From IMG/VR virus record IMGVR_UViG_3300013094_000246, positions 1 through 25,837 of that record: a stretch of 25,837 bases of DNA, one strand, 5' to 3'. Under the pieces are notes generated by a model, which had not been told where the DNA came from, did no database searches, and worked only from the letters and a program-made list of their open reading frames with translations. This stretch comes from a virus. Within the stretch, counting starts at the first letter, position 1; each line of letters starts with the position of its first letter. Shown here piece after piece: positions 2,997 to 21,982 of the stretch. The translations under genes and the position numbers were made by a program.

Positions 2997-3024
2997 ATTA
3001 TATAGGTTTTTCTGACAATGTCAA
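2997..3024 (-). promoter_or_regulatory. Consensus sigma70 promoter for the clamp operon, with palindrome at -35
   Basis: On the minus strand TTGACA (3024-3019) and TATAAT (3002-2997) are both exact consensus hexamers with a 16-base spacer, 21 bases ahead of the chosen clamp start. The -35 box overlaps the perfect palindrome TGACA-T-TGTCA at 3013-3023, which could be an operator. The promoter overlaps the last codons of the dehydrogenase gene, so the clamp can be made independently of the upstream polymerase transcript. Confidence 0.7.
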
Positions 3025-3800
3025 GGATTTTTCCTAACCTTTTTATTATATTCAATGGCCGATTCGACCAAAGTATGTGAAATTTGCAAAGTATCAGCAT
3101 AATGTACAAATGCATTTGTGTCCTTGGGAAAACATGCACCTCCGAATCCTCTACTGCCATCTGGACCAGGAACCATCATGTGACTATTTCCAATACGAGT
3201 GTCATGTGTTAATATTTGTCGAACTAAATCGTAATCTGCACCGTTTAGTTTACACATATCGTATAATTGATTAAAGAATGCCACCTTAACACTTAAGAAA
3301 CAATTAGTAGCATATTTGATCATACTAGCCTCTGTAATACTAGTATTAAACACTATTTTTAACTTAGGGCATGATTCTTGAAATACTGTTTGCCACATTC
3401 CTTCAGGATCATCACCTCCCATAACCATATAAGTTTGATTTTTAAAATCATCATTGGCTGTTACTGCACGTAAAAATTCTGGACTATAACAAATACTATG
3501 ATTAGGAAAATTTTTTAATAATTGTTCTAAATAATTTGGTGGTACAGTACATTTGAGTAATACTGGAATATGTAAAGGCACATCTTTCATTATTTCATAA
3601 ATTTGACTTACATCGCAATCTCCTGATGGTGTGCTTGGTGTACCGACACAAATAATAATACCGTCTGCGTACTTAAAATCTGAAATTTTGTTATTATTAA
3701 TTTTTGGATCAATAATATGTAAAATATTGTTAGGCTCAATAGCATTTCCAACGGCCTTTCCAACAAATCCGTACCCTGCAATTATAATTTCTTTTTTCAT
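3021..3800 (-). CDS. Short UDP-glucose/GDP-mannose dehydrogenase-like protein
   Basis: 259 residues starting MKKEIIIAGYGFVGKAVG at 3800; the upstream extension to 3869 runs into the polymerase gene and is not needed. A Rossmann fold is shown by GYGFVG at 9-14. Family landmarks follow: CVGTPSTPSG near 51-60, SPEFLRAV at 106-113, K162 and N166 in the central helix, and GGACFPKD with the presumed catalytic C223. The family oxidises the C6 alcohol of UDP-glucose or GDP-mannose to the acid with NAD. Usual members have about 400 or more residues. This one stops right after the central dimerisation helix and lacks the C-terminal nucleotide-sugar-binding domain. The catalytic residues are intact, so it does not look like simple decay. 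It lies one base after the polymerase stop. Role unknown: precursor sugars for DNA or capsule modification are possible. Confidence 0.85.
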   Translation of the reverse strand: MKKEIIIAGYGFVGKAVGNAIEPNNILHIIDPKINNNKISDFKYADGIIICVGTPSTPSGDCDVSQIYEIMKDVPLHIPVLLKCTVPPNYLEQLLKNFPNHSICYSPEFLRAVTANDDFKNQTYMVMGGDDPEGMWQTVFQESCPKLKIVFNTSITEASMIKYATNCFLSVKVAFFNQLYDMCKLNGADYDLVRQILTHDTRIGNSHMMVPGPDGSRGFGGACFPKDTNAFVHYADTLQISHTLVESAIEYNKKVRKNP

Positions 3801-3801
3801 A

Positions 3802-6471
3802 TTAAAACTCGAATAAACTGTTAAATGTATTTTTTTCTTCTGTGCTAGTAATATCCCAATCAAGTACACCGATTAAGTTATCTAACTTATTATCAATAAT
3901 GGTCTGTTCCATCTCAGCATGATCAAATGGTAAATCTTTGAACCACTGTGGTAATCTCAGTTCGTCTACTGGATAAGCAACTGATGTATAACCTAACGGA
4001 TTAGGTTTGAGTTTACAAACAATAACCTTTGCACCGTCAGTAATACTCATAGAATATTTGTCACCATACATACGCTTTAGTGAATTCCAATTGATACTAG
4101 CACGAACATGCCCTGGCATGTTGGCTTTACCTGCCTTGGCTTCTTTAGCTTGATAGTCAGTAATGTTGTTAGCACGTTTAGGACTACCTTTTTCCCATCC
4201 AGGGCGCCCTTTAAACTTGATACGGAACTCACTAATATGATCTAGCACTTCTTGTTCGGGCTTACCCATTAAGACCATTTCAAGAACATCACTTAAGAAG
4301 TTTTGTATAAATTCAGGAGTATCGCTACGTTTAAGATCTAACCCCATTGCTTTGATCTTACCAGGCTTACCATCTATATCTGTACGTTTGCCTTCTTTGT
4401 CATAATACAATACAGCATATCGTTTCTTGGTAATAAACAAACTCTTACTACCGACAATTTCACGACCTGCTTTAATTACTTCACCACGACTCTTTGGACA
4501 GTGGAAATAATCTAACATAAACTGTGGGAATGTAGTGTTTACTTCTTCGCCGATTTGATCGTATAATGCAATTACAGTTTCTTTAGTCCAAGGAAGTTTA
4601 CCTGCATCAATATCTTTTTGCAATGTACTGTAAGCACTAAAATAACAACTGTCAGTATCACCGTAAATAACAGCTTTACCTCTATAGTCATATTCACCGG
4701 TAATAATTTCGTTGACCTTACCGGCCATATGTTTAACAATTTGACGACCAGTTAATGTAGTGGATTGACCAATACGTTTATCAAAGAATCTACAACCGCT
4801 ATTGAGAATAGCACCATATAAACTATTCAAGTTAATTTTCTTAACCAGCTGTCGCTTATCCCAATATTCTTCTTCTACTTTATTTCCGGCCTTAATAGCT
4901 TCTTTTAATTTGGCCTGCATTTCTTTACGTTCAGCATACCAACGCTTTAGTAGTCCAGGAATAATACCTTCTTTTTCATAAGTGAATATAGTACCGTTGG
5001 CGCTGAGCATCCAAGGCTGATTACTTTCATAAATTAGTCTATATACTTCGGCAGCACTTAGGATATCAGTGTCTCCGTTTTCCCAATCGATAGTAATATC
5101 TGTGCCGATTTCTTGATTCATTACCGCAGTATATTCTAACGAACCGAATATACCTTCCCATGCGGCCGCAAATGATTTATTTTTAGCCATCTGTGCTTCA
5201 ATATATTCGTCTGTTTTAGTTTGACGTAATTGTCCAATAATAGTTTCTGGACCCATGTTAAGTGCTCTAATAGCACTAGGATACAGTGAGTTAATATCTA
5301 ATGAACCAATCCAATCGTGAATACCTTCTTTAGGATATGCAACATACGCACCTGCGGCCGCAGTATTTTCTTCTCTGTCATCTTTCTTAATACGATTAGG
5401 AACTTGAAAACCTCTGCGATGTGCTTCGTTAATAATAGCTTGTTCGGTTACAGCTACAGCACCCATCGTTGTCTGTAGCAATACTGTATTTTCATGTGCC
5501 AATGTATTGGCAAGATCCATGAATTTTAATTTCTTATCTAGATCATCGAGTAGTTTACAGTCATTGATGTTGTATTCAACAAATGTTCTAAAGTCATTGT
5601 TATATAACTGATCTAGTGTGCCTTCGTATTGCGTTTTGCGTTGGCCCAACTCGTGTTCGGCAATAGCATCTAGTCGATAACTATGACGTTCTTCATATGT
5701 ATACTTACGATATAGTTCAAGATAGTCCAAATGTACACGACCTATATAATCATAAGTTGTTGCTGTACGACCGTATTTTTCATATTCACGTTTTTTAGGC
5801 AGTTGATCAAACAAACAAAAACGTCTTGTATCTTCTTTGCTTAACGCCTTAATAACACGATTAGTGGTATATGGTACGTCAAAACCTTCCGAGTTCCAAC
5901 CACTTAAGATATCCGCATCTTTGATTAGGTCTAAAAACATGTCCAATAAATCTGCTTCGTTATCAAACAAATATGTATTAGGAAAGTCTTTGACCATTTC
6001 CTTGGCTTCTGCCATTTTAAGTTTTTTAGGAGGAATAGCTAAACATACCATAGTCTCTAACCATTGCAGGTAGACAGCAATCGCAGTAATTGGCATGAAC
6101 GCATCGTCTGGACTTGCGTAGCCACGTTCTGGATCAAAGTCTACCTCAATATCGAAAAATGCTACATTTAGTTTTGGAGCATCTTGATTTAAGTAGTGTT
6201 CGCTTAGTGTTACAAAGATAGGATTAATGTCAGACTCATATAAAGTCTTACCGCTATTAATAGCTTGTTCTTTGCGTAGTTCTTTTGTGTTTTTACAAAC
6301 GATACGTGTGAGCGGTTCACTGTAGATTGAAGTAAATTTCCCTCGGGGATCTTTTACATAAAATGTATGACGTACAGGAATATCTCTAAATTCTCTCTCG
6401 CCATTTTTGTTGCGTTCAACCACTTTAACAATATCATTCTCGCGGTCAAACCATGCGTCTACATAAGACAT
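3802..6471 (-). CDS. 43: Family B DNA polymerase, T4 gp43 type, with 3'-5' exonuclease
   Basis: 889 residues (T4 gp43 has 898), starting MSYVDAWFDRENDI at 6471. A GGAG site lies nine bases upstream; the in-frame ATG at 6486 overlaps that site. Exonuclease motifs are present: DIE at 107-109, GWN-SEGFD around 192-198, and YNINDCK around 300-306. Polymerase motif A is SLDINSLYPS (catalytic D392), motif B is KKINLNSLYGA around 544-554, and motif C is YGDTDS (D605, D607). A KKRY segment and KxxGLDLKRSDTP follow in the thumb region, as in other phage gp43 proteins. The protein ends in NSLFEF, equivalent to the T4 gp43 tail (SLFDMFDF) that binds the clamp. It replicates the phage genome with the clamp encoded just downstream. 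Confidence 0.97.
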   Translation of the reverse strand: MSYVDAWFDRENDIVKVVERNKNGEREFRDIPVRHTFYVKDPRGKFTSIYSEPLTRIVCKNTKELRKEQAINSGKTLYESDINPIFVTLSEHYLNQDAPKLNVAFFDIEVDFDPERGYASPDDAFMPITAIAVYLQWLETMVCLAIPPKKLKMAEAKEMVKDFPNTYLFDNEADLLDMFLDLIKDADILSGWNSEGFDVPYTTNRVIKALSKEDTRRFCLFDQLPKKREYEKYGRTATTYDYIGRVHLDYLELYRKYTYEERHSYRLDAIAEHELGQRKTQYEGTLDQLYNNDFRTFVEYNINDCKLLDDLDKKLKFMDLANTLAHENTVLLQTTMGAVAVTEQAIINEAHRRGFQVPNRIKKDDREENTAAAGAYVAYPKEGIHDWIGSLDINSLYPSAIRALNMGPETIIGQLRQTKTDEYIEAQMAKNKSFAAAWEGIFGSLEYTAVMNQEIGTDITIDWENGDTDILSAAEVYRLIYESNQPWMLSANGTIFTYEKEGIIPGLLKRWYAERKEMQAKLKEAIKAGNKVEEEYWDKRQLVKKINLNSLYGAILNSGCRFFDKRIGQSTTLTGRQIVKHMAGKVNEIITGEYDYRGKAVIYGDTDSCYFSAYSTLQKDIDAGKLPWTKETVIALYDQIGEEVNTTFPQFMLDYFHCPKSRGEVIKAGREIVGSKSLFITKKRYAVLYYDKEGKRTDIDGKPGKIKAMGLDLKRSDTPEFIQNFLSDVLEMVLMGKPEQEVLDHISEFRIKFKGRPGWEKGSPKRANNITDYQAKEAKAGKANMPGHVRASINWNSLKRMYGDKYSMSITDGAKVIVCKLKPNPLGYTSVAYPVDELRLPQWFKDLPFDHAEMEQTIIDNKLDNLIGVLDWDITSTEEKNTFNSLFEF

Positions 6472-6485
6472 AAATTTCTTCTCCA

Positions 6486-6503
6486 TGCAATTTAGGGCTT
6501 GCA
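6486..6503 (-). promoter_or_regulatory. Hairpin at the polymerase ribosome-binding site, candidate gp43 translational operator
   Basis: The transcript reads TGCAA, an eight-base loop GCCCTAAA, then TTGCA, directly followed by the TGGAG ribosome-binding site of the polymerase gene. A five-base-pair stem with an eight-base loop beside the Shine-Dalgarno site is the architecture of the T4 gp43 operator, where the polymerase represses its own translation. The loop bases differ from T4, and a hairpin this short can arise by chance. Confidence 0.45.
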
Positions 6504-6553
6504 AATACCTTTATGCGGTTTATTGGCCCGCTAGCCTTCTATAGCAATACTTA

Positions 6554-6871: not shown

Positions 6872-7471
6872 TTATTTAAATTTAGGCCCAGTTAACCAAA
6901 TAACTAAACTTTTTCTAATACCTTTTGTAATTGGTGTAACTCGATGTATTAAAAAACTTGGAAATAATAATAAAGATCCTTTTTTTAGAGTTGGCTTTAT
7001 AGTTCTATTATCACCACAGACATTAAATTCAAAATCTCCACCTTTAAAATCTATACCTGGTTCGTTTAACAGTAGTGTTACTGAAAGTTTTCTATTTTCT
7101 ATCCAAGCTTTTTCCATTTCTCCTAGACCCATGTCTATATGAAAATCGTATCTTCCATTTTTAGAAGAATCATAAGTTGAATATTGAATAAAATCATAAC
7201 CGTTGATATCAAAATTAAAATATTTTTCATTCATGTAATCTAACGCATTATTAAATCTTTCAAAAATCCATTTATTATCATTTGACGGATTTATAAAATT
7301 TAAATCACTGATTCTAATATTTCCTTCATCTATTCCGGGTTGTAAATTTAATTTGTCTACATAATTATTAATATGGTCTAATTCTTCTTTAGAAAATATT
7401 GTATCATCGGATGCGTATATTGGTAAATTCCGCAATCTTTGATATGTATTATTTGATATTTTTTTGTACAT
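6872..7471 (-). CDS. 2-oxoglutarate/Fe(II)-dependent oxygenase (prolyl-4-hydroxylase type)
   Basis: 199 residues. The facial triad is visible: HID at H111 and D113, and H176 in FLIHRVTPITKG, with R186 ten residues later as the expected 2-oxoglutarate-binding residue. LSVTLLLN at 129-136, GGDFEF at 144-149 and KKGSLLLFPS at 163-172 are the usual core strands of P4H/PKHD hydroxylases. Such enzymes are common in aquatic T4-like phages; substrates are mostly unknown, and modification of virion or host proteins or of nucleotides is possible. I see no good Shine-Dalgarno site before the ATG at 7471, so it may be weakly translated. It lies after the terminator of the virion block and ahead of dsbA. 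Confidence 0.85.
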   Translation of the reverse strand: MYKKISNNTYQRLRNLPIYASDDTIFSKEELDHINNYVDKLNLQPGIDEGNIRISDLNFINPSNDNKWIFERFNNALDYMNEKYFNFDINGYDFIQYSTYDSSKNGRYDFHIDMGLGEMEKAWIENRKLSVTLLLNEPGIDFKGGDFEFNVCGDNRTIKPTLKKGSLLLFPSFLIHRVTPITKGIRKSLVIWLTGPKFK

Positions 7472-9024: not shown

Positions 9025-10539
9025 TTATTCCTTAGGTACACAGTTAGGAACCGTACGTCCGCCTTTTTTCTTAGTGCCTACTGGATGATACCCTTTCCAG
9101 CACGGGTTTGAATTTTTTAGTGTGCGTTTTTTTGCGTTGGCTTCTTTGATTGGATTAGGTTCTTGAGATTTTTTTTCTTGTTTGGCCTTCCATTCTTTTT
9201 CAAATTCTGCTTTGGCCTGTTTGGCACGTTCTAAACTAGCTGTAGATTTTGCCTTTTCACGATCCCATGCACGACTTAATTTTACTTGTGCTGATTGGCC
9301 TTCATCTAAGTCGTTTGCAATAGCTTTTTTTATAATGTTAACAACATTAGGATTTGCTTTTAGCTGATGTAGTGTATGCTCGGCATGAGCTTTATCTTTG
9401 AATCCGCCTTGTACTACTGCCCATGTTGGTGTACCAAAAAATTCGCCGTGGGGATACCATATCTCTGATTTTCCAGTATCTGTACGATCTACAACTTTTA
9501 ATTTAGTTGGATCTATTTTTTCTTGGCTATGTTTATTTGCTTGAGTTGCTGCCATCATTTGTTTATGTGATTGAGCCGCCGCTCTGTTTGCGGGATTAGG
9601 TTCTTGACCAATCATATCTCTTAACAAATCAGCCCAACTCCAACCTTCCATTTCTGGATCGTGAAATTTTTCATCAAACCATTGGGTAACTTCGTCTAAA
9701 TCTTCTTCTACAAAATACTTTGGAATAAAACCTTTTTTCTCGGCAATATCAATCATGTAACTTAGCAATGTATTGTCACTTGCATTTGCAAAGTGTTCCT
9801 TAGTATCAGGATCCATTTTTTTAAGAATATCCATACCAAACTTAAATGCATGTTTATAACCAGGCATATTATCAAAAGTCATTGTGGTATTTGGATCGTA
9901 TGACTGCGGTTTTGCATCTTGACGATTGCTCATCGATTTATTCATAAAGTTTAAAAACTTAGGATCATGCGCTTCATTAGACATAAGTCCTGGACCTCCC
10001 GGTCCTGGAGTAAAGCCGATAGTATGCCCTGGAATCTCGTGTTCTTTAACTTTTTTATGCTTCATAGCATTACTAAGTTGTTTAGTACCAGTATCTGCTT
10101 TGTTAAACTCTTTAGCAACTGATTGTTTGATACCTAACTTTTTAGCAAACTTAGGATCGTGTGCGGCAGCAGCCATAGTACGTGCTTGTTTTTCGCTTGT
10201 ACTTTTTTCACTAATAACTTCGCGGCCTTCTTTCATTAATACACGTTCGGCAATAACACTTGCATACTGATTCATGAGTTGACGTTTATGAGCTTGCTCT
10301 TCTATATGCTCTTGGTTGACTTCTTGAAAAAATTTATTAAGGAGTGAAGGTTTACGTTCTACAACCGGAGCAGGTTCTTTTTGTTGATAGTGTTGCATTG
10401 CCATTTGTACTGGCAAACTAACTTTATGAGGATTAGCTCCTTCAGTAACAACTTGAAGGAACTTTTTCATATCATTTGCGCCTTCTACAGGATTAGTAGA
10501 GGCATTATCTATCGCCTGTAGTATGCGCTTCATGTCCAT
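9025..10539 (-). CDS. Marine T4-like virion-type protein with NPCWKGY...PNCVP tail
   Basis: 504 residues, hydrophilic and rich in Lys, Gln and Ala. The N-terminus MDMKRILQAIDNASTNPVEG continues to KKFLQVVTEGANPHKVSLPV, with VTE-G at 31-34 as a possible prohead-protease site. A middle part around 355-410 (SEIWYPHGEFFGTPTWAVV) looks like a small folded domain. A Lys-rich helix covers 415-470. The C-terminus NSNPCWKGYHPVGTKKKGGR then VPNCVPKE is a two-cysteine motif that I recall from many marine phage head-region proteins. No enzymatic motif is visible. It sits five bases after the preceding gene. A capsid core or internal head protein is the most likely role. Confidence 0.55.
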   Translation of the reverse strand: MDMKRILQAIDNASTNPVEGANDMKKFLQVVTEGANPHKVSLPVQMAMQHYQQKEPAPVVERKPSLLNKFFQEVNQEHIEEQAHKRQLMNQYASVIAERVLMKEGREVISEKSTSEKQARTMAAAAHDPKFAKKLGIKQSVAKEFNKADTGTKQLSNAMKHKKVKEHEIPGHTIGFTPGPGGPGLMSNEAHDPKFLNFMNKSMSNRQDAKPQSYDPNTTMTFDNMPGYKHAFKFGMDILKKMDPDTKEHFANASDNTLLSYMIDIAEKKGFIPKYFVEEDLDEVTQWFDEKFHDPEMEGWSWADLLRDMIGQEPNPANRAAAQSHKQMMAATQANKHSQEKIDPTKLKVVDRTDTGKSEIWYPHGEFFGTPTWAVVQGGFKDKAHAEHTLHQLKANPNVVNIIKKAIANDLDEGQSAQVKLSRAWDREKAKSTASLERAKQAKAEFEKEWKAKQEKKSQEPNPIKEANAKKRTLKNSNPCWKGYHPVGTKKKGGRTVPNCVPKE

Positions 10540-12474: not shown

Positions 12475-12482
12475 ATATTTAG
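12475..12482 (-). promoter_or_regulatory. Possible T4-type late promoter (CTAAATAT)
   Basis: CTAAATAT on the minus strand lies 24 bases ahead of the 635-residue protein gene, overlapping the stop codon of the gene before it. It resembles the T4 late box TATAAATA in its TAAATA core. Evidence is the short motif plus position only. Confidence 0.3.
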
Positions 12483-13135
12483 CGTCTTTTGATGACTTGT
12501 GCTTCGTTCTTAGGACCGCCAAACAAGCTAGTTCCTTTAATATCTAATCCGTTTTTAGCTGTTCCGTCGCTATTTTTAGGTTGTACTACTTTAGGTTGTG
12601 GTGGCGCTTTCGTTCCAGAACCTGTACCTGGACTACCTGTATAACTTCTTTTACCACGTGCCTTACCTGGACTTAGTTGCGGAGCATCTACTGTACCAAT
12701 GTTGGCGGCACTTGTAGCACCTGCTGTAGCAGTTTCTTTAATATTTTTCTTTTTCTTTTTAGCGATAGCAATAGCGGCCTGTTGTGCGGCATTGGCAGCT
12801 TCCGCCACACCTTGTTTCAATCTATGTTTAATACTATTAATACGCTGTGCTAGACTGTGATGTTTAGTATACACACTATGATCATCGCTGTATTGATAGT
12901 TAGGATCAAATTGAGCTTCTAAATGTCCTAATTCTTGTTCTAAATGAAAACGTTCTTCTGAGCTTAATTCTCGAGAAACATGCGCAGGAGCATTAGCTCG
13001 TTGTGCTATCATATCTTGTGTGCGCTGGCGCTCTTCATCAGGAGTACCGCGAACGCGGTGTTTAATTCCTTTATCTTTAAGAAATGATTTAAAATCATCG
13101 CCTAAACTTTCGCCGATTAATTCTCTTAATTTCAT
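12479..13135 (-). CDS. Putative prohead-targeted protein, unknown function
   Basis: 218 residues, hydrophilic. The N-terminus MKLRELIGESLGDDFKSFL contains IGE-S at 7-10, which fits the [LI]xE-[AGS] cleavage rule of T4-like prohead proteases. Residues 55-110 form a charged helical region (SSEERFHLEQELGHLEAQF). Then comes NAAQQAAIAIAKKKKKN, and a Gly/Pro/Thr-rich disordered tail. No enzymatic motif is visible. The ATG overlaps the stop of the 76-residue gene by four bases. Targeting to the capsid interior is inferred from the leader and from its neighbours. Confidence 0.55.
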   Translation of the reverse strand: MKLRELIGESLGDDFKSFLKDKGIKHRVRGTPDEERQRTQDMIAQRANAPAHVSRELSSEERFHLEQELGHLEAQFDPNYQYSDDHSVYTKHHSLAQRINSIKHRLKQGVAEAANAAQQAAIAIAKKKKKNIKETATAGATSAANIGTVDAPQLSPGKARGKRSYTGSPGTGSGTKAPPQPKVVQPKNSDGTAKNGLDIKGTSLFGGPKNEAQVIKRR

Positions 13136-13362
13136 TTTTTAATTCCTCTAAATCCTGCACCAACAGCACGTTCGCCATTCATAAACTTGGGTAAACTAAA
13201 CCACAACTTGAACCATTCTTCAGTTCCAGGCTTGATGTTTTGCTCACGCATGATCTTTGCTTTCTCTGTACCAGTTATACTGATATTACTTCCGCCATAA
13301 GGTTGTAAGCCCTTAAATTCATTAATACCTGCTAACTTCTTAAGACGTGCTATTTCATCCAT
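13132..13362 (-). CDS. Small virion-block protein with DEIARLKKLAGI leader
   Basis: 76 residues. It starts MDEIARLKKLAGINEFKG, an amphipathic helix followed by INE-F, a weaker candidate prohead-protease site. The rest (KAKIMREQNIKPGTEEWFKLWFSLP, GAGFRGIKK) contains a short Trp-rich segment. I do not recognise the family, though DEIARLKKLAGI-type peptides recur in marine phage structural proteins. Start and stop are fused to both neighbours (TAATG with the Dps gene, ATGA with the next), so it is translated with them. Confidence 0.6.
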   Translation of the reverse strand: MDEIARLKKLAGINEFKGLQPYGGSNISITGTEKAKIMREQNIKPGTEEWFKLWFSLPKFMNGERAVGAGFRGIKK

Positions 13363-13802
13363 TATTTAAGACTCGCTCTCAACATCCAACTGTGCTTTTT
13401 ATGTGCATCTTGACGATCTGCTAAGAAGTTACTTAGACCGTGATCACCGGCAGCTTCGGCCATATCAAATGTAATACGGAAAATTTCTGCCATTTTATCG
13501 CTGTCTGCTAACAATTCTTTTAACATATCGCTCCACTCTAATACAGCATTTTCATCATTAACTGTTGTCAACATACTGAATTTTTGCAAACTAGCTGGAG
13601 TGTAAATTTGTAAAGCACGTAAATGTTCTGCAAATGTATCAATACTTCCATATACTTCTGTATAAATGCGTTCAAACAGTTCATGCAACTGAGAAAATAA
13701 AGGACCTTCTACATTCCAGTGAAAATTATGACTCTTAAGATAAAAACTAAATTCACTAGCAAATGCAGTTTTTAATGCAAGATGATATTTGTTATGTTCC
13801 AT
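13362..13802 (-). CDS. dps: Dps-like ferritin (DNA-binding protein from starved cells)
   Basis: 146 residues forming a four-helix ferritin-like protein. The Dps signature is clear: SHNFHWNVEGPLFSQLHELFE, then DTFAEHLRAL. By spacing, all the ferroxidase ligands are present: H28, H40, E44 (Asp in Listeria Dps), D55 and E59. Dps proteins form 12-subunit shells that oxidise and store iron with peroxide and often coat DNA. It lacks the long Lys-rich tail that gives some Dps proteins DNA binding, and it has no obvious prohead-protease leader. Its stop overlaps the start of the next gene and it starts one base after the preceding stop, so it is an integral member of the virion-type operon. Protection of DNA from oxidative damage in the infected cell or in the capsid is plausible; which one is unknown. 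Confidence 0.88.
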   Translation of the reverse strand: MEHNKYHLALKTAFASEFSFYLKSHNFHWNVEGPLFSQLHELFERIYTEVYGSIDTFAEHLRALQIYTPASLQKFSMLTTVNDENAVLEWSDMLKELLADSDKMAEIFRITFDMAEAAGDHGLSNFLADRQDAHKKHSWMLRASLK

Positions 13803-13803
13803 T

Positions 13804-14181
13804 TTATATACCGTACTTGTTCTTTTTAGGTTTAGCTACAGGACTAGTTTTATTGCCACCCTCTGGTTCTTGGCTCTTTTTCCAGGGTAGTACTTCGTGA
13901 TCTTCTGTAGGGATAACTTTTTTAGCATCTTTAAACATATTGTGTTCTACTTCACTAAACGGATGTTGTGTCCAATATGGTCCCATCCAGCTTTCGTGCG
14001 GAACATCCTTAGGTATATTACCGTTTCCATCCATAGTTCCAACTACAATACCCATGCGCATTTGATGATAGCTAGGATAGTAGCCTCCTGGATCACGAAC
14101 TTTTCGTGTGCCCTGCGCCGCAGATGCATGATTTTCGTGGTGTTTACCAGTATGTTCGATAATAAATTCTTTAGCTCGCAT
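13804..14181 (-). CDS. Putative prohead-targeted protein, paralog of the C-terminal domain of its neighbour
   Basis: 125 residues. The leader MRAKEFIIEHTGKHHENHA has IIE-H at 7-10 as a candidate processing site. A GYYPSYHQMRMGIVVGTM segment and PFSEVEHNMFKDAKKV follow, and the protein ends SPVAKPKKNKYGI. The last 132 residues of the 1051-residue protein just upstream show the same order: MRAQEFMRKKLDEG, YMQYRFGMAMG, PFSDADVEKVKAAAK and SPVAKPKKNRFGI. The two are therefore paralogous. The start codon overlaps the stop of that gene (TAATG). No catalytic motif is visible; a small virion or internal head domain is the best guess. Confidence 0.65.
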   Translation of the reverse strand: MRAKEFIIEHTGKHHENHASAAQGTRKVRDPGGYYPSYHQMRMGIVVGTMDGNGNIPKDVPHESWMGPYWTQHPFSEVEHNMFKDAKKVIPTEDHEVLPWKKSQEPEGGNKTSPVAKPKKNKYGI

Positions 14182-17100
14182 TATATTCCAAATCTATTTT
14201 TCTTAGGTTTAGCAACTGGACTTATAACATTAAGACCTTCGTCGTGTTCGTAACTAGGTCCGTTACTAAGATTTGTAATAGAACCTGCACCCATAGATTT
14301 AGCTGCCGCTTTAACTTTTTCGACATCTGCATCACTAAACGGTGAAATTAAAGGGTCACCGCTCATTGCACCCGCTCGAGGCATGTCAGGATTGCCCATA
14401 GCCATACCAAAACGATACTGCATATAAGGACTACCGTTGGCTTTATTCATACTAATATTAGGCACACTCATAGCATTATGCAGACCTGATATAAGATGAG
14501 GATGGAATTTTTCACCCTTACCTGCATAAGGTACATCGCCTTCATCTAATTTCTTTCGCATAAATTCTTGTGCTCTCATTTCTCGTATTATCCTATTACT
14601 TTCTTTTATATTTAGCGGTTCTTCGGTGGGCTGTTGTTTAGGGGAAATGCCCATACCTCGACGAGTAACATTCATTAAATGTTCAATCCAGGCAGGAGAT
14701 AATTTAGTAGCACCAAAATTTCCACCATTAAACGCATCGTTCCATATGGCAAATGCTTGTTCTGGACTATCAATCTTTATACTGTTTCTTAATTGTGTAA
14801 AACTTACTCCGGTTCCTCGAGGAGTTGGTTCTAATTTAACATCAACATGTTCGTATCCTTGGAATTTATTAACAGCATTCATCAACGCATTAGCAATACT
14901 CATACCTTTTTGATCTTCTCCTACCATAATGATAATATTATCATATCTAGGAGGTTTTCCTGGACGAGGTTGTATTAGTTCATGCTTGATTTTTAAAGTT
15001 AGTGTTCCACCTTGTTCTGTAACTGCACTGATATTTTTAGCATATTGCGGATATAACATATGCCATGTTTTAACTTTATCTGCAACTGGAATAGGATCAT
15101 TTTTACCTACAGCATTTCCAATGAACAAATAAGGATCTCCGCCTACTTCTTTAGCCTTATTGATTGCATAATTAAATAGTTCTTGATGTCCTTTATGTCC
15201 AGCAAAACTACCAATCGCAACTACCGCAGTTTTGCCATCGGTTTTTGTTCCTACTGCTAGTCTTCTTTGTTGCGCGGCTTGCTTTGCTGCCATTTTCTCG
15301 GCTGTTTTGGTAGCAACTACATCCTTAAACATATCTGTAGTTACTTTGACAGGACCGTTACGGCTATTAAGAATAATACCTTCATAATCTTGGCCTAGCA
15401 TATCTCTACCAACAATATTAGGATGTGATATTATCATATCAGCCAATTTTTCTTTCATTGGTTGAATTACTGTGTTGGCTTCTTGTTTAGCCGCACGTTT
15501 ATTGCTTAAAAGCATATCTCTTAGTGCGCCAAGATTTGCTAAAGGATCAATAACACCTGATGCATCAATATCACCATTTGTGGTTAAACTATTATCGATA
15601 AACATAGTTGAACCTATTTGTTTTAATGATTTTAATGTTTTTACAATATCATCTTCATTCGGATGTTGTTCACCTGTACTAGAAACTTGAACAGTGAATG
15701 GAACTAGTGCTAATTCAACACCTTGCGGTAATTTATTATATTTGACACTAACAAATTTAAGTTTACCATCGATTTCTTCTGCCATTGGTACATATAAAAC
15801 TTCTACATGAACTTTAACATCTTTTAAAAAATCTGGTCCTAATTTGCTATCGATATCTGCAATAGTTTGAATTACTTGGTCATACAGTCTATCGTATTTT
15901 TGAGCACGATCTAATTGCCAAGGATCAGTGATACCTTGCTCTTGTGCCCATGCCATACTTGCACCTGGTTCAAATATTGGACCTAATTTTTGAGGTTCGT
16001 AAAAAGGTCTTCCTGATGCATCTTTACCAAAACGCCCACCTAACCCATCGACTTTGACATTCATAGGAATGTTCCCTAAGTTAAGTCTATCGTTACTATC
16101 TTTTAATTCATCTAACAAATCTAAAAAGTCAATGTCTTTCATTTTTTGTAAATGAACTGCACCTTTACGTTTACTTTGAACTACACCGTCTTCATTTAGT
16201 GATTCACTTACTCTTTTATAGTTACTATAATAAGTTTGCGTCAATTGATTTAAATCTGCAGGTTCGGGTAGTTGCAATGCGGATAACATTTTATCTACGG
16301 CAGCTTTCTTTTCAGCGGCATCTCTATTAGGGTCGTTTTTATATAATCCTTGAGCACCTGGTCCATACAATTTAACTAAGAATCCTTTTAAAACGGTTTC
16401 CTTTTCTTCAGGTTGCAGTACAGCATTCATTATTTCTAATATACCGACAAACGACCAAAATTTAGGTACTAGTTTTTTTATTTGTCTATGATTAATCCTA
16501 TCGCCAAACAATGTAGTTAAAATTCCGGAAACATCGTTATTATATCCACTTGGTGGTAATGCTTTCATTACAGGTAATCCATGTTTTACCATGGGCGCAT
16601 TTGTAGCAGGATCTATCACAGGAGTATACTTAGGACGTAAACCACCACCTTCTTTTGAACTAACTGCAAAACTAAACATATTATCACGAACTGGTGCTTT
16701 GCCTTTAGTCGTATAAAATTCTTTGTTGCTAAGTGATGCTAGTGCTTGTATAATCCATTTATGGAATACACCTTTAATTCCGTGCTGTAAATCTTCCCAA
16801 GCACTTGAGTGACTAAATTTAGCCCAATCAGTTGGTTTGTTGTCTTTATAGTCGACAAATTCTAAATCAATTTGAACTTTAATAGGAGGATTTTGAAACT
16901 CCCATAAACTAAGATATTGTTCATTACCTCGATCAAATCCTAAGAATTTTGCACCTGCAATACTTTTACCTTGTATTGCTGTTAAGAATTGTTGTACTTG
17001 GGGTGCTAAGTCTTTATTAACTTGTGTATCTATATCACCGACTTTAGGTTTAATACGAACAAATTCTTCATCTGATATGTTTGTATTAAAAAAATGTAAA

Positions 17101-17336
17101 CTGCTACCGCTTAAAAATTCCTGACTTTGTAATAACTCAGGACTCCACAAATTTTGTTTGCTATGTTTTTTAAATGCAGTATTAATTCCTAATAGCAATT
17201 TATTAAAAACAGGCAATACAAATCCACGATTGTGCACTTGTAAATCTATAGTATCGGCAGTTGCTCCGCCGATAGTAGCATTTCCACCTTCCTTTAGTAC
17301 AGGATTAATGCGACTAAAAAGCTCGCGTAGTAACAT
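14181..17336 (-). CDS. Multidomain nucleotidyltransferase: pol-beta-like, ligase-like and HxGH cytidylyltransferase-like domains
   Basis: 1051 residues. Leader: MLLRELFSRINPVLKEGG, with LKE-G at 14-17 as candidate prohead-protease site. Domain 1 (about 20-360) shows the pol-beta-type pattern: GSS at 77-79, GDIDTQV with D101 and D103, and VQIDLEF with D157. Domain 2 (about 395-680) has ligase/capping-type motifs: KVDG at 428-431 (presumed nucleotidyl lysine K428), then R435, VHVEVLYVP at 509-517, YEGIIL at 651-656 and PVKVT at 662-666. Domain 3 (about 700-895) has an HxGH nucleotidylyltransferase motif, GHKGHQELF at 713-721, and a late GVSFTQLR at 843-850 matching the ISxTxxR motif. The C-terminal domain (920-1051) is a paralog of the next gene product. 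Further [LI]xE sites occur at LNE-D 380-383 and LDE-G 930-933, both at domain borders. Motifs are visible in sequence; activity, substrate and processing are inferred. Confidence 0.75.
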   Translation of the reverse strand: MLLRELFSRINPVLKEGGNATIGGATADTIDLQVHNRGFVLPVFNKLLLGINTAFKKHSKQNLWSPELLQSQEFLSGSSLHFFNTNISDEEFVRIKPKVGDIDTQVNKDLAPQVQQFLTAIQGKSIAGAKFLGFDRGNEQYLSLWEFQNPPIKVQIDLEFVDYKDNKPTDWAKFSHSSAWEDLQHGIKGVFHKWIIQALASLSNKEFYTTKGKAPVRDNMFSFAVSSKEGGGLRPKYTPVIDPATNAPMVKHGLPVMKALPPSGYNNDVSGILTTLFGDRINHRQIKKLVPKFWSFVGILEIMNAVLQPEEKETVLKGFLVKLYGPGAQGLYKNDPNRDAAEKKAAVDKMLSALQLPEPADLNQLTQTYYSNYKRVSESLNEDGVVQSKRKGAVHLQKMKDIDFLDLLDELKDSNDRLNLGNIPMNVKVDGLGGRFGKDASGRPFYEPQKLGPIFEPGASMAWAQEQGITDPWQLDRAQKYDRLYDQVIQTIADIDSKLGPDFLKDVKVHVEVLYVPMAEEIDGKLKFVSVKYNKLPQGVELALVPFTVQVSSTGEQHPNEDDIVKTLKSLKQIGSTMFIDNSLTTNGDIDASGVIDPLANLGALRDMLLSNKRAAKQEANTVIQPMKEKLADMIISHPNIVGRDMLGQDYEGIILNSRNGPVKVTTDMFKDVVATKTAEKMAAKQAAQQRRLAVGTKTDGKTAVVAIGSFAGHKGHQELFNYAINKAKEVGGDPYLFIGNAVGKNDPIPVADKVKTWHMLYPQYAKNISAVTEQGGTLTLKIKHELIQPRPGKPPRYDNIIIMVGEDQKGMSIANALMNAVNKFQGYEHVDVKLEPTPRGTGVSFTQLRNSIKIDSPEQAFAIWNDAFNGGNFGATKLSPAWIEHLMNVTRRGMGISPKQQPTEEPLNIKESNRIIREMRAQEFMRKKLDEGDVPYAGKGEKFHPHLISGLHNAMSVPNISMNKANGSPYMQYRFGMAMGNPDMPRAGAMSGDPLISPFSDADVEKVKAAAKSMGAGSITNLSNGPSYEHDEGLNVISPVAKPKKNRFGI

Positions 17337-17338
17337 TA

Positions 17339-17710
17339 TTAATCCTTGTACTTGCCGTCTTTGATATCTTTTATAACTTCGTGATGCATTTTATTGCATA
17401 CACGTTCGCATAAATCTTCTTCTAAATTATCTGGTAATTCCTTAATAGGAAATTTACGAATATATGCTTTATAACTACTTTCGACAGCAGGCTTAAAAAA
17501 GTTTAAATTAGTAGGTTTTTTAGATTCAATTCTGTCAATACATTTTGCAATGCTTGGATATGTTAAACGGCGATATATGTCATCATCTTGATGCATGAAA
17601 TGTATTAAATCTTCGACTAAGTCAAAGTTTATATCTCGTTTATGTCCATCATGATGCACAAAATCTTTTTCATGGAAAAATTTGCCTTCTAATAATTCTT
17701 TTATTCGCAT
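17339..17710 (-). CDS. Putative prohead-targeted protein, unknown function
   Basis: 123 residues. The leader MRIKELLEGKFFHEKDF has LLE-G at 6-9, a good match to the T4-like prohead-protease rule. The rest is charged and predicted helical, with a His/Asp-rich part early (HEKDFVHHDGHKRDINFD, HFMHQDDD) and Cys residues near the end (DLCERVCNKMHHEV). No known domain is recognised. It is the first gene of the virion-cargo block, behind a late-promoter-like box, and ends two bases before the multidomain nucleotidyltransferase starts. Confidence 0.6.
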   Translation of the reverse strand: MRIKELLEGKFFHEKDFVHHDGHKRDINFDLVEDLIHFMHQDDDIYRRLTYPSIAKCIDRIESKKPTNLNFFKPAVESSYKAYIRKFPIKELPDNLEEDLCERVCNKMHHEVIKDIKDGKYKD

Positions 17711-17778: not shown

Positions 17779-18372
17779 TTATTTTTTAACTATGCGTTCT
17801 ACTTTACTAATGCTACCGCCCAAATGCATTTTAGCTAGCAATAAGTTATTGTCACCAGTGATATAGAAGTGCGTACCGCCCCAACTGCGTGGGCGTTGTA
17901 GTTCTCGGATGCAACTTTTTGTTAATTTGCATTTTTTATTCGTATCAGCCCATGCTATAAATGCGCTATGTTCTTGTACAGTTTTGCCCAACGTAACACG
18001 ATAATCATAGTCCATTTTAGGCATGATTATCGTGCCCTCTTGTAAATTTGCACCAGTTTCAGGCTCGCAGACATATTTTACATGGTCTGGATTAATTTTA
18101 ACTAATTTCTTAATAAGAGATTGATTATTAGTGTAGATACTAATCCAAGGACTTTCGACACGAACATCTATAGCCGATTCGTGCATTAGCTCTGTAGCAA
18201 GTTTGATACCGTAGCCGGTATCATCCTTGTTTTTTGTAAATTCGACCTTTTTTAATGTAGCTATTGCGGCTGGCATGTCTCTTGAACGAAATAAATGCGA
18301 GTTGGCACAAGTCAGTACAATTTTGTACTGATAAATGCCTCGAAATAAACTCCTTGTAGTCTTATGCTCCAT
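17779..18372 (-). CDS. Conserved-looking phage protein of unknown function
   Basis: 197 residues from the ATG at 18372, which overlaps the end of clpA by 11 bases; an upstream in-frame ATG at 18414 lies inside clpA and looks unnecessary. The protein is mixed alpha/beta with no membrane segment. Notable segments are SLFRGIYQYKIVLTCANSHLF, SPWISIYTNNQSLIKKL, MDYDYRVTLGKTVQEHSAF and RSWGGTHFYITGDNNLLLAKM. I recall similar proteins in aquatic T4-like phages without a function. No catalytic motif is evident. Translation is probably coupled to ClpA. Confidence 0.6.
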   Translation of the reverse strand: MEHKTTRSLFRGIYQYKIVLTCANSHLFRSRDMPAAIATLKKVEFTKNKDDTGYGIKLATELMHESAIDVRVESPWISIYTNNQSLIKKLVKINPDHVKYVCEPETGANLQEGTIIMPKMDYDYRVTLGKTVQEHSAFIAWADTNKKCKLTKSCIRELQRPRSWGGTHFYITGDNNLLLAKMHLGGSISKVERIVKK

Positions 18373-20659
18373 TTTCTTGTGATTCAATAATAATAATATC
18401 TGAGTTATCTTCAATTGTTGGACTTGCTAACAACGGCATTTTAATATCTTGTGTAGCAGTTAATACCAATGCATCGTTAGCAACATTAATGCTTAACAGC
18501 CCACCATTCTTTAAATCACCGAATAACATCATACGAGCCATACTACGTTTAATTTCTTTATCAATAATACGTTGTAATGGACGAGCACCCATTTTACTAT
18601 CGAATCCTTTAGTAATTAACCAATCAGTACTTTCCTTATCTATTTTGACAAGGATGCCTTTATCTTTAACTTGAGCACGGAGTTCGTCGATGAATTTGAT
18701 AACAATCTTAGTCATAGTTTCTTTACTAAGTTTATTAAACGTAATAATGCCATCTAAACGATTACGAAATTCAGGAGTTAAAAACTTCTTCAAGTCTTTA
18801 TCACTATAATCTTTTTCTTGACCACCGAATCCGATTGCATTCTTTTCGGCACTTTCTGCCCCAGCGTTAGTAGTAAGAATAAGAATTAAATTGCGACAAT
18901 CTGCTTTCTTACCATTTGAACCGGTAATAAATCCATTGTCCATTACTTGTAACAATACAGTCATTACATCTGGGTGTGCTTTTTCAATTTCGTCTAACAA
19001 CAATACAGCGTTAGGCGATTCTTGAATACTAGTAATCAACTGTCCGGCATTTTCTTCGAACCCAACATATCCTGGAGGGCTACCGATTAATTTGCTAATA
19101 CTGTGTTTTTCTTGATATTCACTCATATCATAACGAAGCAATTTAACACCTAGGTGTTTAGCAAGAGATTTTGCAGTTTCAGTCTTACCTGTACCAGTTG
19201 GACCCATGAATACAAATGATCCAATAGGTTTATTTTCACTTTTAAGTCCTGCTTGGGCAACAACAATTTTATCTACAACTTCTACAAGGGCAAGTTCTTG
19301 TCCATAAACTTCTGATTGCAAATTTTCTTGTAGCGTAGCAAGATTGTTTGATTCAGTTTCCATGATCTTTTCTTCAGGCATCTGGATCATCTTAGCAAGT
19401 TCATATTGAATTTCATGTTCGCCGATAATTCTTTCATCTGCAAGTTTCAAATTAAAACGGCTACATGCTACATCGATTAAGTCAATAGCCTTATCAGGCA
19501 ACTTTTTATCTGTTTGATACTTAACACTTAACTTAATAGCGGCATCGATTGCATCATCACGAATCTTAACACTATGGAAACCTTCGTAGTATTTCTTAAT
19601 ACCTTTAAGTATCTGCTTCGTAACTTCCATAGTAGGCTCGTCAACAGTAATGCGTTGGAAACGACGCATCAAAGCACGATCCTTTTCAAAATGTTTACGA
19701 TATTCTTCCCATGTAGTTGAAGCTACGACTTTAATATTGCCTTTGCTTAATGCAGGCTTCATCATGTTAGCAAGATCGTTAGCAGAGTTGCTTGCTGAAC
19801 CAGCACCGCTAATCATGTGTGCTTCATCAATAAACAATACAGTCTTGCCTTTCTTTTGAAGAGCCTTAACGACTTGTTTAAAACGTTCTTCAAAGTCGCC
19901 GCGATATTTAGATCCGGCAAGCATGGCACTAATATCTAAACTATAAACTTTATAATCTTTAAGGAATTCCGGAACAGCACCATTAACAATATTGTAAGCA
20001 AGTCCTTCTGCTATAGCAGTCTTACCTACACCAGGATCGCCTACTAAAATTACATTGTTTTTACTACGACGACCTAATGCTAGTGCAACATTTTCTAATT
20101 CGTCAATACGACCGATAACAGGATCGACTTTTTGTTTTGTTACTTCATCATTAAGATTAGTAGTAAATGCCTTTAATGCACGATTACCTTGATGATCTGC
20201 TGGACCTTCTTCGTCAACTTCTTCGACATTATTGTTTAGATAATCAGCAAATTTATCTTTATCAATGCCTGCTTTTTGTATATAATAATTTGCCCAGCTA
20301 CGTTTTTCACCGATCATAGCGAGAAACACATCTGTTGGTTCAATCTTTTGTCGTCCATTGAACAATACTTGTGTAAATGCACGATTAAGTACACGTTCAA
20401 CTGCTTGTGTCTTTTTAGGTTTAACTACAACATCAGGAATAGTAATTTCCTGACATTTGTTTTGCAAGTAGTCTGTTAACTCTGCTTTTAAATTGTCACT
20501 ACTTGCACCGAATCCTGTAATGGCTCCGGCAAATTGTTCATCGGCTAACATAGCAAACAATAAATGTTCTATGGTTAGATATTCGTGATGCATTTTTTTA
20601 GCAGTATCGATTGCTCGTTCAAATACCACTTGTAAGTTATCACTGGGTTCAACCATCAT
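18362..20659 (-). CDS. clpA: ClpA-type AAA+ unfoldase
   Basis: 765 residues, the length of a full bacterial ClpA. An N-terminal adaptor-binding Clp_N domain covers about 1-145 ([20 protein letters not shown]). AAA1 has Walker A GDPGVGKT at 207-214, Walker B FIDEAH at 276-281 and pore loop KYRG at 251-254. AAA2 has Walker A GPTGTGKT at 486-493, Walker B LLLDEIEK at 553-560 and pore loop GYVG at 530-533. No ClpB-type middle coiled coil is seen. IGF at 609-611 sits where ClpA carries its ClpP-docking IGL loop. It could therefore unfold proteins into a host ClpP; no ClpP gene is in the window. Two adjacent ATGs are possible starts (20659 and 20656); the second has the better Shine-Dalgarno spacing. 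The gene overlaps the deformylase stop. Confidence 0.93.
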
Positions 20660-21144
20660 TTTTTCCTTTTCTTTAGTTGTTTTTTTCTAGCTATTGATAG
20701 TCTCAAAGGACTAATATTATCAGTAAAGCATACACCGTTTAAATGATCTAGTTCATGTAAAAAACATCTAGCATCAATGCCTACAAGTGATATTATACAT
20801 TCTTTTCCGTTTCTGTCAAGATATTCGACATCTACTGCCATAGGTCGTTTAATATCTAACCATAGGTCAGGAAAACTTAAACATCCTTCTTCGCCTTCTT
20901 GTTCAACTTCGCTAGTAAATTTTACAGTAGGATTGAATAATCCAAATTCTCTACCATCATCTGTACGCATTACAAATACTCTGTATAGTAATCCTACTTG
21001 ATTAGCAGCCAGTCCTCTGCCGTTGCTTGCTTTCATTAATAAAAGCATTTCGTTTTCAATTTGTTCAGCATTGGTTTGAGTGCTGAAGTTCCAATCTTCA
21101 GCACGTTTTTTTAAAATAGGATCAGGAAATTTTACTAATTTCAT
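20656..21144 (-). CDS. def: Peptide deformylase
   Basis: 162 residues with all three deformylase motifs: GRGLAANQ at 42-49, EGCLS at 86-90 with metal ligand C88, and HELDH at 130-134 with metal ligands H130 and H134 and catalytic E131. The enzyme removes the formyl group from the N-terminal Met of new proteins using a bound divalent metal. The C-terminus is a short Lys/Arg-rich tail ([11 protein letters not shown]). The ATG overlaps the end of the DnaJ-like gene by 23 bases, and the stop overlaps the clpA start, so the three are translated as a unit. Deformylases are recurrent in marine phages, where they are thought to help high rates of protein synthesis. Confidence 0.95.
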   Translation of the reverse strand: MKLVKFPDPILKKRAEDWNFSTQTNAEQIENEMLLLMKASNGRGLAANQVGLLYRVFVMRTDDGREFGLFNPTVKFTSEVEQEGEEGCLSFPDLWLDIKRPMAVDVEYLDRNGKECIISLVGIDARCFLHELDHLNGVCFTDNISPLRLSIARKKQLKKRKK

Positions 21145-21982
21145 CGTTTAGCTGATTTAATTTAGCCATTAAAACAGGGTCTTTAATAATAGGTGTTTTA
21201 ATACGGACTACAGTTACAAATCTACCTTTTCGACCATTGTTTACATTTACAAACCCTTGTCCGTTACTTGCAAACTCTGTTCCGTGCTCAACTCCTGCAC
21301 GGATATCTAAGTTCATAGTTCCGCCAGTTATTGTTTTAATTGTTTTTTTACAACCAATCATTGCTTCGATTGGATTTATATCAACTGTAGAATATAAATC
21401 ATCTCCTTGCCTACTATATATCGGATCTCCAGTAACTAAAATAGTTACATTTAAATTTCCCCTAGGCGCTCCCGCAATGCTATCGTCTCCTAAACCGTTA
21501 TAACGAATAGTATCCCCGTGAACGATTCCAGCAGGAACATTAATAGCTACAGTTTGGCTACGACCACTTGGTAATTGATAGTTTGCTTCTAATTGTTTAC
21601 CTAAATATGAATCTAATAAACTAATAGTACATTGGATGTTTAAATCTCTATTGCGTCTTGTTTGTCCGCGCATATGAGCAAATATATCTCCGAAAGGATG
21701 CCCTTGCGGAAATGCTCCTCCAAACGGATCAAACCCGCCGCCAAATGGATTTCCAGTATTAAAATGGAATTGCTGACCTCCAGGGTGTGCACGTTGATGA
21801 TCGTATTCAGCTTTTTTTTGTGTATCGCTTAAGGTATCATAAGCAACACTAATGTCTTTGAATTTGGCTTGATCTCCACCTTTGTCTGGATGATGTTTAT
21901 TAGCCAAAGTTCTGTATGCTTTTTTTATTTCGTCTGGGCTAGCGTTTTCGCTAATACCTAGCGTTTGGTAATAATCAGTCAT
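21122..21982 (-). CDS. DnaJ-family cochaperone without zinc finger (CbpA/DnaJ type II)
   Basis: 286 residues. A J domain occupies about 4-62, with YYQTLGISENASPDEIKKAY and the essential HPD at 31-33, which stimulates Hsp70 ATPase. A Gly/Phe-rich linker follows at about 68-105 (GGGFDPFGGAFPQGHPFG). The C-terminal substrate-binding domains begin at about 110 (RDLNIQCTISLLDSYLG) and include NVPAGIVHGDTIRYNGLGD. No CxxCxGxG repeats are present, so this is the CbpA-like type. It would use the host DnaK, as no Hsp70 gene is in the window. It is the first gene behind a consensus promoter and leads the operon with deformylase and ClpA. Confidence 0.93.
   Translation of the reverse strand: MTDYYQTLGISENASPDEIKKAYRTLANKHHPDKGGDQAKFKDISVAYDTLSDTQKKAEYDHQRAHPGGQQFHFNTGNPFGGGFDPFGGAFPQGHPFGDIFAHMRGQTRRNRDLNIQCTISLLDSYLGKQLEANYQLPSGRSQTVAINVPAGIVHGDTIRYNGLGDDSIAGAPRGNLNVTILVTGDPIYSRQGDDLYSTVDINPIEAMIGCKKTIKTITGGTMNLDIRAGVEHGTEFASNGQGFVNVNNGRKGRFVTVVRIKTPIIKDPVLMAKLNQLNDEISKIS

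Follow-up and report, generated by a model that had tools for sequence, protein, structure and literature searches.

The window analyzed here is the 25,837-nucleotide stretch that forms positions 1 to 25,837 of the IMG/VR virus record IMGVR_UViG_3300013094_000246. Between positions 14181 and 17336, its plus strand is riddled with stop codons and its minus strand carries an open reading frame (ORF) of 1051 codons. The encoded protein, here termed the precursor, contains three nucleotidyl-transfer domains or candidate domains (d1, d2, and d3), flanked by predicted capsid protease sites. Its features are as follows (arrows mark predicted cuts).

14181..17336, minus strand: precursor ORF, 1051 residues, ATG start, with leader, pol-beta-type d1, cut site, ligase-like d2, HxGH d3, and C-terminal cargo
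17289..17336, minus strand: predicted capsid-targeting leader MLLRELFSRINPVLKE, residues 1–16, cut at VLKE↓GGN ([LIV]xE↓G in 78/78 fused homologues; T4 controls)
16209..17288, minus strand: d1, pol-beta superfamily nucleotidyltransferase domain, residues 17–376, with predicted mature N-terminus Gly-Gly-Asn (AlphaFold2 model, fold search, invariant residues)
16173..16208, minus strand: linker between d1 and d2 that contains a predicted prohead-protease site, SLNE↓D, residues 379–383 (site present in 46/46 and in 61/61 anchorable relatives)
15297..16172, minus strand: d2, probable ligase/capping-like covalent nucleotidyltransferase domain, residues 389–680 (KVDG, VEVLY, YEGIIL, and PVKVT; AlphaFold2 model; BFVD match)
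14652..15248, minus strand: d3, HxGH adenylyltransferase domain, residues 697–895 (NMNAT profile match, PPAT/NMNAT fold matches)
14184..14651, minus strand: putative C-terminal cargo, residues 896–1051, following the predicted cuts NIKE↓S at 912 and KLDE↓G at 932, both read from the sequence; paralogous to the ORF at 13804–14181

Scanned as a single sequence, the precursor yields little: a Pfam match to FAD_syn (E 0.0018) does not reach the cut-off, and PHROGs 19290, 12709, and 3041 are matched over three parts of the protein. The case therefore depends on relatives and folds. A d1 scan of IMG/VR identified 229 contigs that encode a relative, 80 of which were kept, and profile searches of IMG/VR contig ORFs found 137 proteins with all three domains, invariably in the order d1-d2-d3 (137/137). 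These fused homologues, 81 at 90% identity, range in length from 908 to 2135 residues. Wherever a domain is complete in the 81 fusions, the pol-beta triad, KxDG, both glutamates, the motif V lysine, HxGH, and R850 are fixed, and the ratio of nonsynonymous to synonymous substitution rates (dN/dS) against an 80%-identical relative is 0.07–0.09 per domain. Judged by this invariance across 81 fused homologues, the motifs in the precursor are not a product of chance.

The d1 triad consists of G77-S78-S79, D101/D103, and D157 in the window protein, and G77, S78, D101, D103, and D157 are invariant in every complete homologue (81 fusions, 90% clusters). The AlphaFold2 model of d1 is confident (pLDDT 95, pTM 0.90), and all of its top fold matches in the PDB are pol-beta-superfamily enzymes, namely family-X polymerases such as DNA polymerase (pol) mu, pol beta, and TdT, terminal uridylyltransferases (TUTases), and other nucleotidyltransferases of the pol-beta type (Foldseek E 3.6e-3; VIA Z 8.4 over 169 residues, a modest score). 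The alignment with family X has ~12% identity at Z ~8 and extends over ~170 residues with DNA pol mu/beta, compared with ~100 for most TUTases. Despite the modest Z, the identity of the hits and the invariant GS/DxD/D triad agree, which supports a pol-beta superfamily fold for the modelled d1. The domain thus shares the GS…DxD…D signature and the fold of family-X DNA polymerases and TUTases, but differs from them in lacking a sequence match, as searches of Pfam and the PDB returned none.

The assignment of d3 as an HxGH nucleotidylyltransferase is supported by both profile and modelled fold. Its motifs are H714-x-G716-H717 and S845..R850 (SFTQLR); H714, G716, H717, and R850 occur in 81/81 fusions and S/T845 in 77/81. 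Profile searches match the domain to the NMNAT/PPAT family (NMNAT E 2.1e-6), and fold searches return PPAT at Z up to 12.9 and NMNAT/NadM at Z ~12 (range 11–12.9). The folds of PPAT, NMNAT, and FAD synthetase obtain similar scores, and no single substrate is indicated.

Domain d2 carries K428-V-D-G431, E512 (VEVLY), E652-G653 (YEGIIL), and K664 (PVKVT). K428, D430, G431, E512, E652, and G653, which represent motifs I, III, and IV, are present in 81/81 fusions, and the motif V lysine is invariant too. In motif V, which reads K664-V-T666, threonine replaces the second lysine of KxK in 81/81. Among 54 sequences that diverge to as little as 21% identity, 11 columns are invariant, and seven of these (K40/D42/G43/E124/E264/G265/K276) correspond to Lys, Asp, and Gly in motif I, Glu in motif III, Glu-Gly in motif IV, and Lys in motif V. 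They sit on or at strands 43–46, 125–133, 271–276, and 279–284 of the AlphaFold2 model (pLDDT ~91). For this joint model of d2 and d3, the PDB fold-search lists are filled by d3 matches; in BFVD, d2 matches a viral RNA ligase (E 3e-5), the sole named ligase among the fold matches. Sequence searches of Pfam and the PDB gave no match to d2, and no cellular relatives were confirmed in GTDB contigs. Profile comparisons of d2 with the T4 Rnl2 and T4 DNA ligase families were not significant (pairwise E 0.058 and 0.53; control pairs 0.13–0.72); the Rnl2 alignment pairs the motif Ia regions of both families, yet the window protein lacks the arginine, and the alignment was not used. With ATP/NAD-dependent ligases and capping enzymes, d2 shares the order of motifs I, III, and IV and their placement on the strands expected for them. 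It differs from these enzymes in its K-x-T motif V, in having no recognized OB or other accessory domain, and in the missing Pfam and PDB sequence matches. Mainly on its invariant motifs, d2 is probably ligase-like, and we do not call it a ligase. The K-x-T found in place of K-x-K in 81/81 would also fit a dead or repurposed ligase-like fold that serves in binding, with d1 and d3 as the only enzymes; this is improbable, as a nucleotidyl-lysine motif and both glutamates that are invariant over 54 divergent sequences would be unusual for a dead site.

An earlier sequence-only reading had described motifs of three nucleotidyltransferase superfamilies in this 1051-residue protein, and all motifs it quoted were found where it placed them. 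Its three-domain assignment is borne out for d1 and d3 by modelling and fold search, and is probable for d2. Its view that the catalytic residues are intact throughout applies to the signature residues, but not to motif V of d2, in which the invariant Thr666 takes the place of the ligase lysine. Its statement that no such combination had been described is correct within the searched literature and family libraries; public genomes nevertheless contain many homologues, labelled "hypothetical protein".

The N-terminus of the precursor matches the capsid-targeting leaders of T4 and ends in a predicted prohead-protease-type site, a feature that the sequence-only reading overlooked, together with the other cut sites. 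In the fusions with their start present, [LIV]-x-E↓G(G/S)N follows an N-terminal stretch of 12–24 residues (rarely ~140), with Glu at P1 in 78/78 and L/I/V at P3 in 78/78, compared with L/I/V at P3 for 14% of the glutamates in folded domains; these counts come from related sequences and are not independent trials. The T4 control leaders have the same form: MKTYQEFIAE↓A in IPII and IPIII, MAKINELLRE↓S in gp24, and MELITE↓L in Alt, the last of which is cut at ITE-6 and LTE-619 according to mass spectrometry (PMC5694885). A second site lies in the d1/d2 linker of 61/61 testable fusions, whereas only 5% of comparable stretches within the folded regions contain one. Overall, [LIV]xE[AGS] occurs 38 times per 1000 residues in leaders, 18 times in the d1/d2 linker, and 0.7 times in folded domains, and no such site was found in 1533 residues of d2/d3 junction. 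A strict leader pattern was matched by 47/699 ORFs (5.2 for shuffled N-termini), with 35/47 of them in the cluster of the precursor family. Textbook leaders also precede stand-alone relatives of d1 (MKTFKEYLVE↓GGN in L005, MKSFKEYLTE↓GGN in L073, and MKLSELILILE↓GGN in Campylobacter phage CP21) and of d2 (MKSFKEYLKE↓D and MKTFKNYVTE↓E), and the gp21 family PF03420, the T4-type prohead protease, is present in 10/14 long records of relatives. The d1 proteins of four phages (X1, YB07, IME-SM1, and Vibrio Va1) are leaderless and start at M-GGN, which is the predicted mature end, so both routes yield the same mature N-terminus.

These patterns bear on a simpler explanation, in which the precursor is an ordinary intracellular fusion enzyme that is never packaged, and the apparent sites in its leader and linker are flexible sequence of no significance. 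The leaderless relatives favor it. Nevertheless, we judge it unlikely, as P1 is Glu and P3 is L/I/V in 78/78, the sites lie at domain boundaries only and spare the d2/d3 junction, the M-GGN starts coincide with the predicted mature end, stand-alone d1 and d2 genes have leaders of their own, and a d3 homologue was detected in virions.

In some cultured T4-like phages, the corresponding domains are encoded separately. A tblastn search matched d1, d2, or both in 38 records from T4-like phages of Stenotrophomonas, Xanthomonas, Vibrio, and Campylobacter, in which the homologues, where annotated, are all "hypothetical protein". A row of neighboring genes, consisting of d1, one extra gene, d2, and a gene for an HxGH protein in this sequence, is found in Xanthomonas phage X1 and in Stenotrophomonas phages of the Menderavirus group. 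Separate d1, d2, and d3 genes, mostly adjacent, follow the fusion order also in Stenotrophomonas YB07/IME-SM1 and in L005, L073, L074, L076, and L079. Correlations between sequence distances are 0.65 for d2 and d3, 0.13 for d1 and d2, and 0.11 for d1 and d3; distances of d2 and d3 thus co-vary and those of d1 hardly do, as would be expected if d1 was a separate product, which matches the cut pattern. The proposal of one polypeptide whose parts act together is correct only in part: the leader sites, the d1/d2 sites, and the separate genes elsewhere indicate a precursor that is cut, which would release d1 and leave d2-d3 joined.

The extra gene (L008:5008–6009, L009:4857–5690, L081:7080–8717, L132:2044–3774, and L133:3325–4659) shows by eye a D…xK pattern like that of PD-(D/E)XK nucleases. 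It adjoins d1/d2 in X1 and YB07, is fused to d2 in IME-SM1, and lies beside the HxGH gene in cyanophages; its S-SCSM1 version is ORF90, a detected virion protein.

A link to virions comes from cyanophages. ORF91 of Synechococcus phage S-SCSM1 is homologous to d3 (profile E 8e-23) and starts with the leader MKSFLQFLKE↓AAES, and it was detected in virions by mass spectrometry together with its neighbors ORF89, 90, 92, and 93 (PMC9602691); a cytidylyltransferase was likewise detected in virions of S-CREM2 (PMC10665884). Among precursor homologues, virion detection is limited to this d3 homologue, ORF91. In syn9, the HxGH gene (gp184) follows a DUF6267 gene (PF19782, gp183) with KYDG…HEGFVI…LKIV, and one PHROG profile, phrog_455, spans DUF6267 and cytidylyltransferase/NMNAT proteins. 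d2 aligns weakly with DUF6267 at motifs IV–V (hhalign E 0.003, compared with 0.06–0.7 for most other pairs). None of the genes neighboring these loci in syn9 and S-SCSM1 proved homologous to d1. S-SCSM1 ORF90 and syn9 gp182, both of PHROG 1462, look nuclease-like (D…xK) by eye only, and we do not claim this function.

The family thus combines three conserved domains in a fixed order, sites conserved in sequence, and recognizable folds of d1 and d3. From these features, we propose, at about even confidence, that the precursor is a capsid cargo of T4-like phages that is cut in the head, ejected, and most likely acts on nucleic-acid ends. Packaging, cleavage, and ejection are inferred by analogy to T4 and from the virion-detected d3 homologue, and on such grounds packaging has good support. 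By means of its 16-residue leader, the precursor would enter the prohead, where a gp21-type protease would cut after [LIV]-x-E at E16 (mature GGN), at E382, and in the tail, as the conserved sites suggest. The products would be d1, a d2-d3 enzyme, and a variable C-terminal cargo. Following T4 precedent, the released enzymes would leave the head together with the DNA and be active in the first minutes of infection. More speculatively, d1 might add or fill in nucleotides, d2 might activate and join ends, and d3 might make or recharge a nucleotide cofactor; the substrates and the joint pathway of d1 and d2-d3 are conjectural. An end-repair or cofactor role is the leading, though speculative, functional idea, and end repair is the first choice because a polymerase-X-like, a ligase-like, and an AMP-transferring cofactor enzyme are combined.

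Several observations weigh against this proposal. d2 has the threonine in motif V, no Pfam match, and no significant similarity to the T4 ligase families, and it was not found where d1 occurs in Vibrio Va1 and Campylobacter CP21. The d1 genes of YB07, IME-SM1, X1, and Va1 lack a leader, and the enzymes therefore do not depend on being packaged. No protease gene is present in the 25.8-kb window. Across the S-SCSM1 genome, a simple leader pattern was not enriched among virion proteins (3/47 vs 8/200, p 0.35). Consequently, the leader argument relies on the homologous position of the leaders and on the precedent of T4, and the pattern does not serve as a general predictor. Furthermore, the authors of the virion analyses warn that carry-over is possible (PMC9602691; PMC10665884).

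KVDG is the motif form of LigA-type ligases. A more specific version of the proposal, which we advance very tentatively, is a self-recharging d2-d3 ligase, in which d2 would use NAD+ as AMP donor and d3 would turn the nicotinamide mononucleotide (NMN) thereby released, with ATP, back into NAD+. With d1 filling gaps, the precursor, cut by the capsid protease, would supply an end-joining kit that is ejected and repairs the entering phage genome or nucleic acid of the host ahead of any phage gene expression.

T4 employs RNA ligases in tRNA repair. The fold match of d2 to a viral RNA ligase and the resemblance of d1 to TUTases would also suit a kit for RNA (tRNA) repair, supplied on entry to counter anticodon nucleases of the host, with d2 as RNA ligase, d1 as terminal nucleotide adder, and d3 as cofactor enzyme. 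We consider this fairly unlikely: no kinase/phosphatase partner was seen, the alignment of d1 with DNA pol mu/beta is longer than its alignments to most TUTases, and the comparison of d2 with the T4 Rnl2 profile was not significant.

Alternatively, the protein may be packaged and its enzymes may act on host proteins or metabolites, for example with d1 as a protein nucleotidylyltransferase and d3 as an NMNAT tuning NAD+, as T4-like "polyvalent" effectors and not a repair kit. Iyer et al, 2017 (PMC5512222) predicted that the pol-beta nucleotidyltransferases of polyvalent proteins modify proteins, the NMNATs of cyanophage virions have been proposed to function in NAD+ metabolism (PMC9602691; PMC10665884), and the tails of the fusions bear unrelated activities (HD_4, lysozyme/LysM, amidoligase). 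Yet the fixed d1-d2-d3 order and the co-inheritance of d2 and d3 suggest one pathway, and d1 aligns with family-X polymerases beyond a minimal nucleotidyltransferase core, albeit at a modest Z. Action on host proteins or metabolites is a real possibility, though a doubtful one.

The tails behind d3 differ among the fusions and include HD_4, lysozyme with LysM, GP88, and amidoligase domains. Two fusions (L002 and L224) carry an HD_4 domain (SpoT/MESH1-like) behind the three enzymes, which suggests by sequence an injected (p)ppGpp-hydrolase cargo. The tail of the window protein had been read as a virion-type domain, an assignment that we could not substantiate: residues ~905–1051 have no match to any known virion family and are paralogous to the next ORF, at 13804–14181 (37% identity, E 4e-4). 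GVAE[GA] linkers are confined to tails (22 vs 0), and no embedded zincin peptidase was found in the window protein, L001, L002, or ten scanned tails. Three companion ORFs have leader-like starts.

13804..14181, minus strand: companion ORF, 125 residues, leader-like start MRAKEFIIE↓H; C-terminal half resembles the precursor tail
17339..17710, minus strand: companion ORF directly upstream of the precursor, 123 residues, leader-like start MRIKELLE↓GKFF
12479..13135, minus strand: companion ORF, 218 residues, leader-like start MKLRELIGE↓S, seen in sequence only

Close relatives of the 123-residue ORF (MRITELLEGK…) lie directly upstream of the fusions in L053, L054, and L071. A P-loop (GGPGSGKTTVGE) protein with a precursor-type leader, MILNELFTTVDE↓G, is encoded at L040:3567–5180 and is a further candidate for a packaged enzyme. 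A CWKGY-x-x-G-x-KKK-x-G-x-x-VPNCVP module occurs at the C-terminus of the window ORF 9025–10539 and in the tails of L001, L003, L016, L018, L019, L026, and L028; it lies near the C-termini of dissimilar proteins of these phages and in 18/81 tri-domain fusions. Near the precursor, the window encodes a Dps/ferritin-like protein (13362–13802), a ClpA-like AAA+ ATPase (18362–20659), a peptide deformylase (20656–21144), and a DnaJ-type co-chaperone (21122–21982). Farther away, UDP-glucose dehydrogenase-like (3021–3869) and 2-oxoglutarate-Fe(II) oxygenase-like (6872–7471) genes flank a DNA polymerase gene (3802–6504).

One conserved phage system, present in >100 viral contigs and labelled "hypothetical protein", thus joins three nucleotidyl-transfer superfamilies, and our analysis supplies testable cut sites and predicted mature proteins. 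If the proposal of a packaged precursor is true, T4-type capsids deliver a ready-made set of nucleotidyl-transfer enzymes as a prohead-protease-processed precursor, which would extend ejected-effector biology from Alt and the internal proteins to a multi-enzyme kit and provide a biochemical lead for DUF6267 as well as for the NMNAT-like proteins that recur in cyanophage virions.

Among known systems, the cyanophages syn9 and S-SCSM1 similarly have a KxDG…EGxxI…K protein beside, or in one profile with, an HxGH enzyme, which has a T4-type leader and, as S-SCSM1 ORF91, was found in virions; they differ in having no detectable d1, and the similarity between d2 and DUF6267 is weak. The internal head proteins of T4 (Alt, IPII, and IPIII) share an N-terminal leader of 6–20 residues ending in [IL]-x-E and possible C-terminal processing. 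A gp21-type protease is encoded in genomes of relatives of the precursor, and Alt is itself a virion-borne transferase. None of the T4 internal proteins carries a d1, d2, or d3 domain, and T4 gave no match to any of the three. Polyvalent proteins likewise combine several unrelated catalytic domains with variable C-terminal modules in one injected polypeptide, and their repertoire includes pol-beta and nucleotide-metabolism domains (Iyer et al, 2017; PMC5512222); for the precursor, injection is a prediction. In the main text of that paper, a text search found no fused ligase or adenylyltransferase domain, and the frequent embedded zincin peptidase is a theme and not a strict requirement (PMC5512222). 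The precursor differs from polyvalent proteins in its fixed d1-d2-d3 core, its T4-like lineage, and its predicted cutting of the prohead-protease type in place of an embedded peptidase. By analogy, it would be delivered like T4 Alt and the internal proteins and built like the polyvalent proteins.

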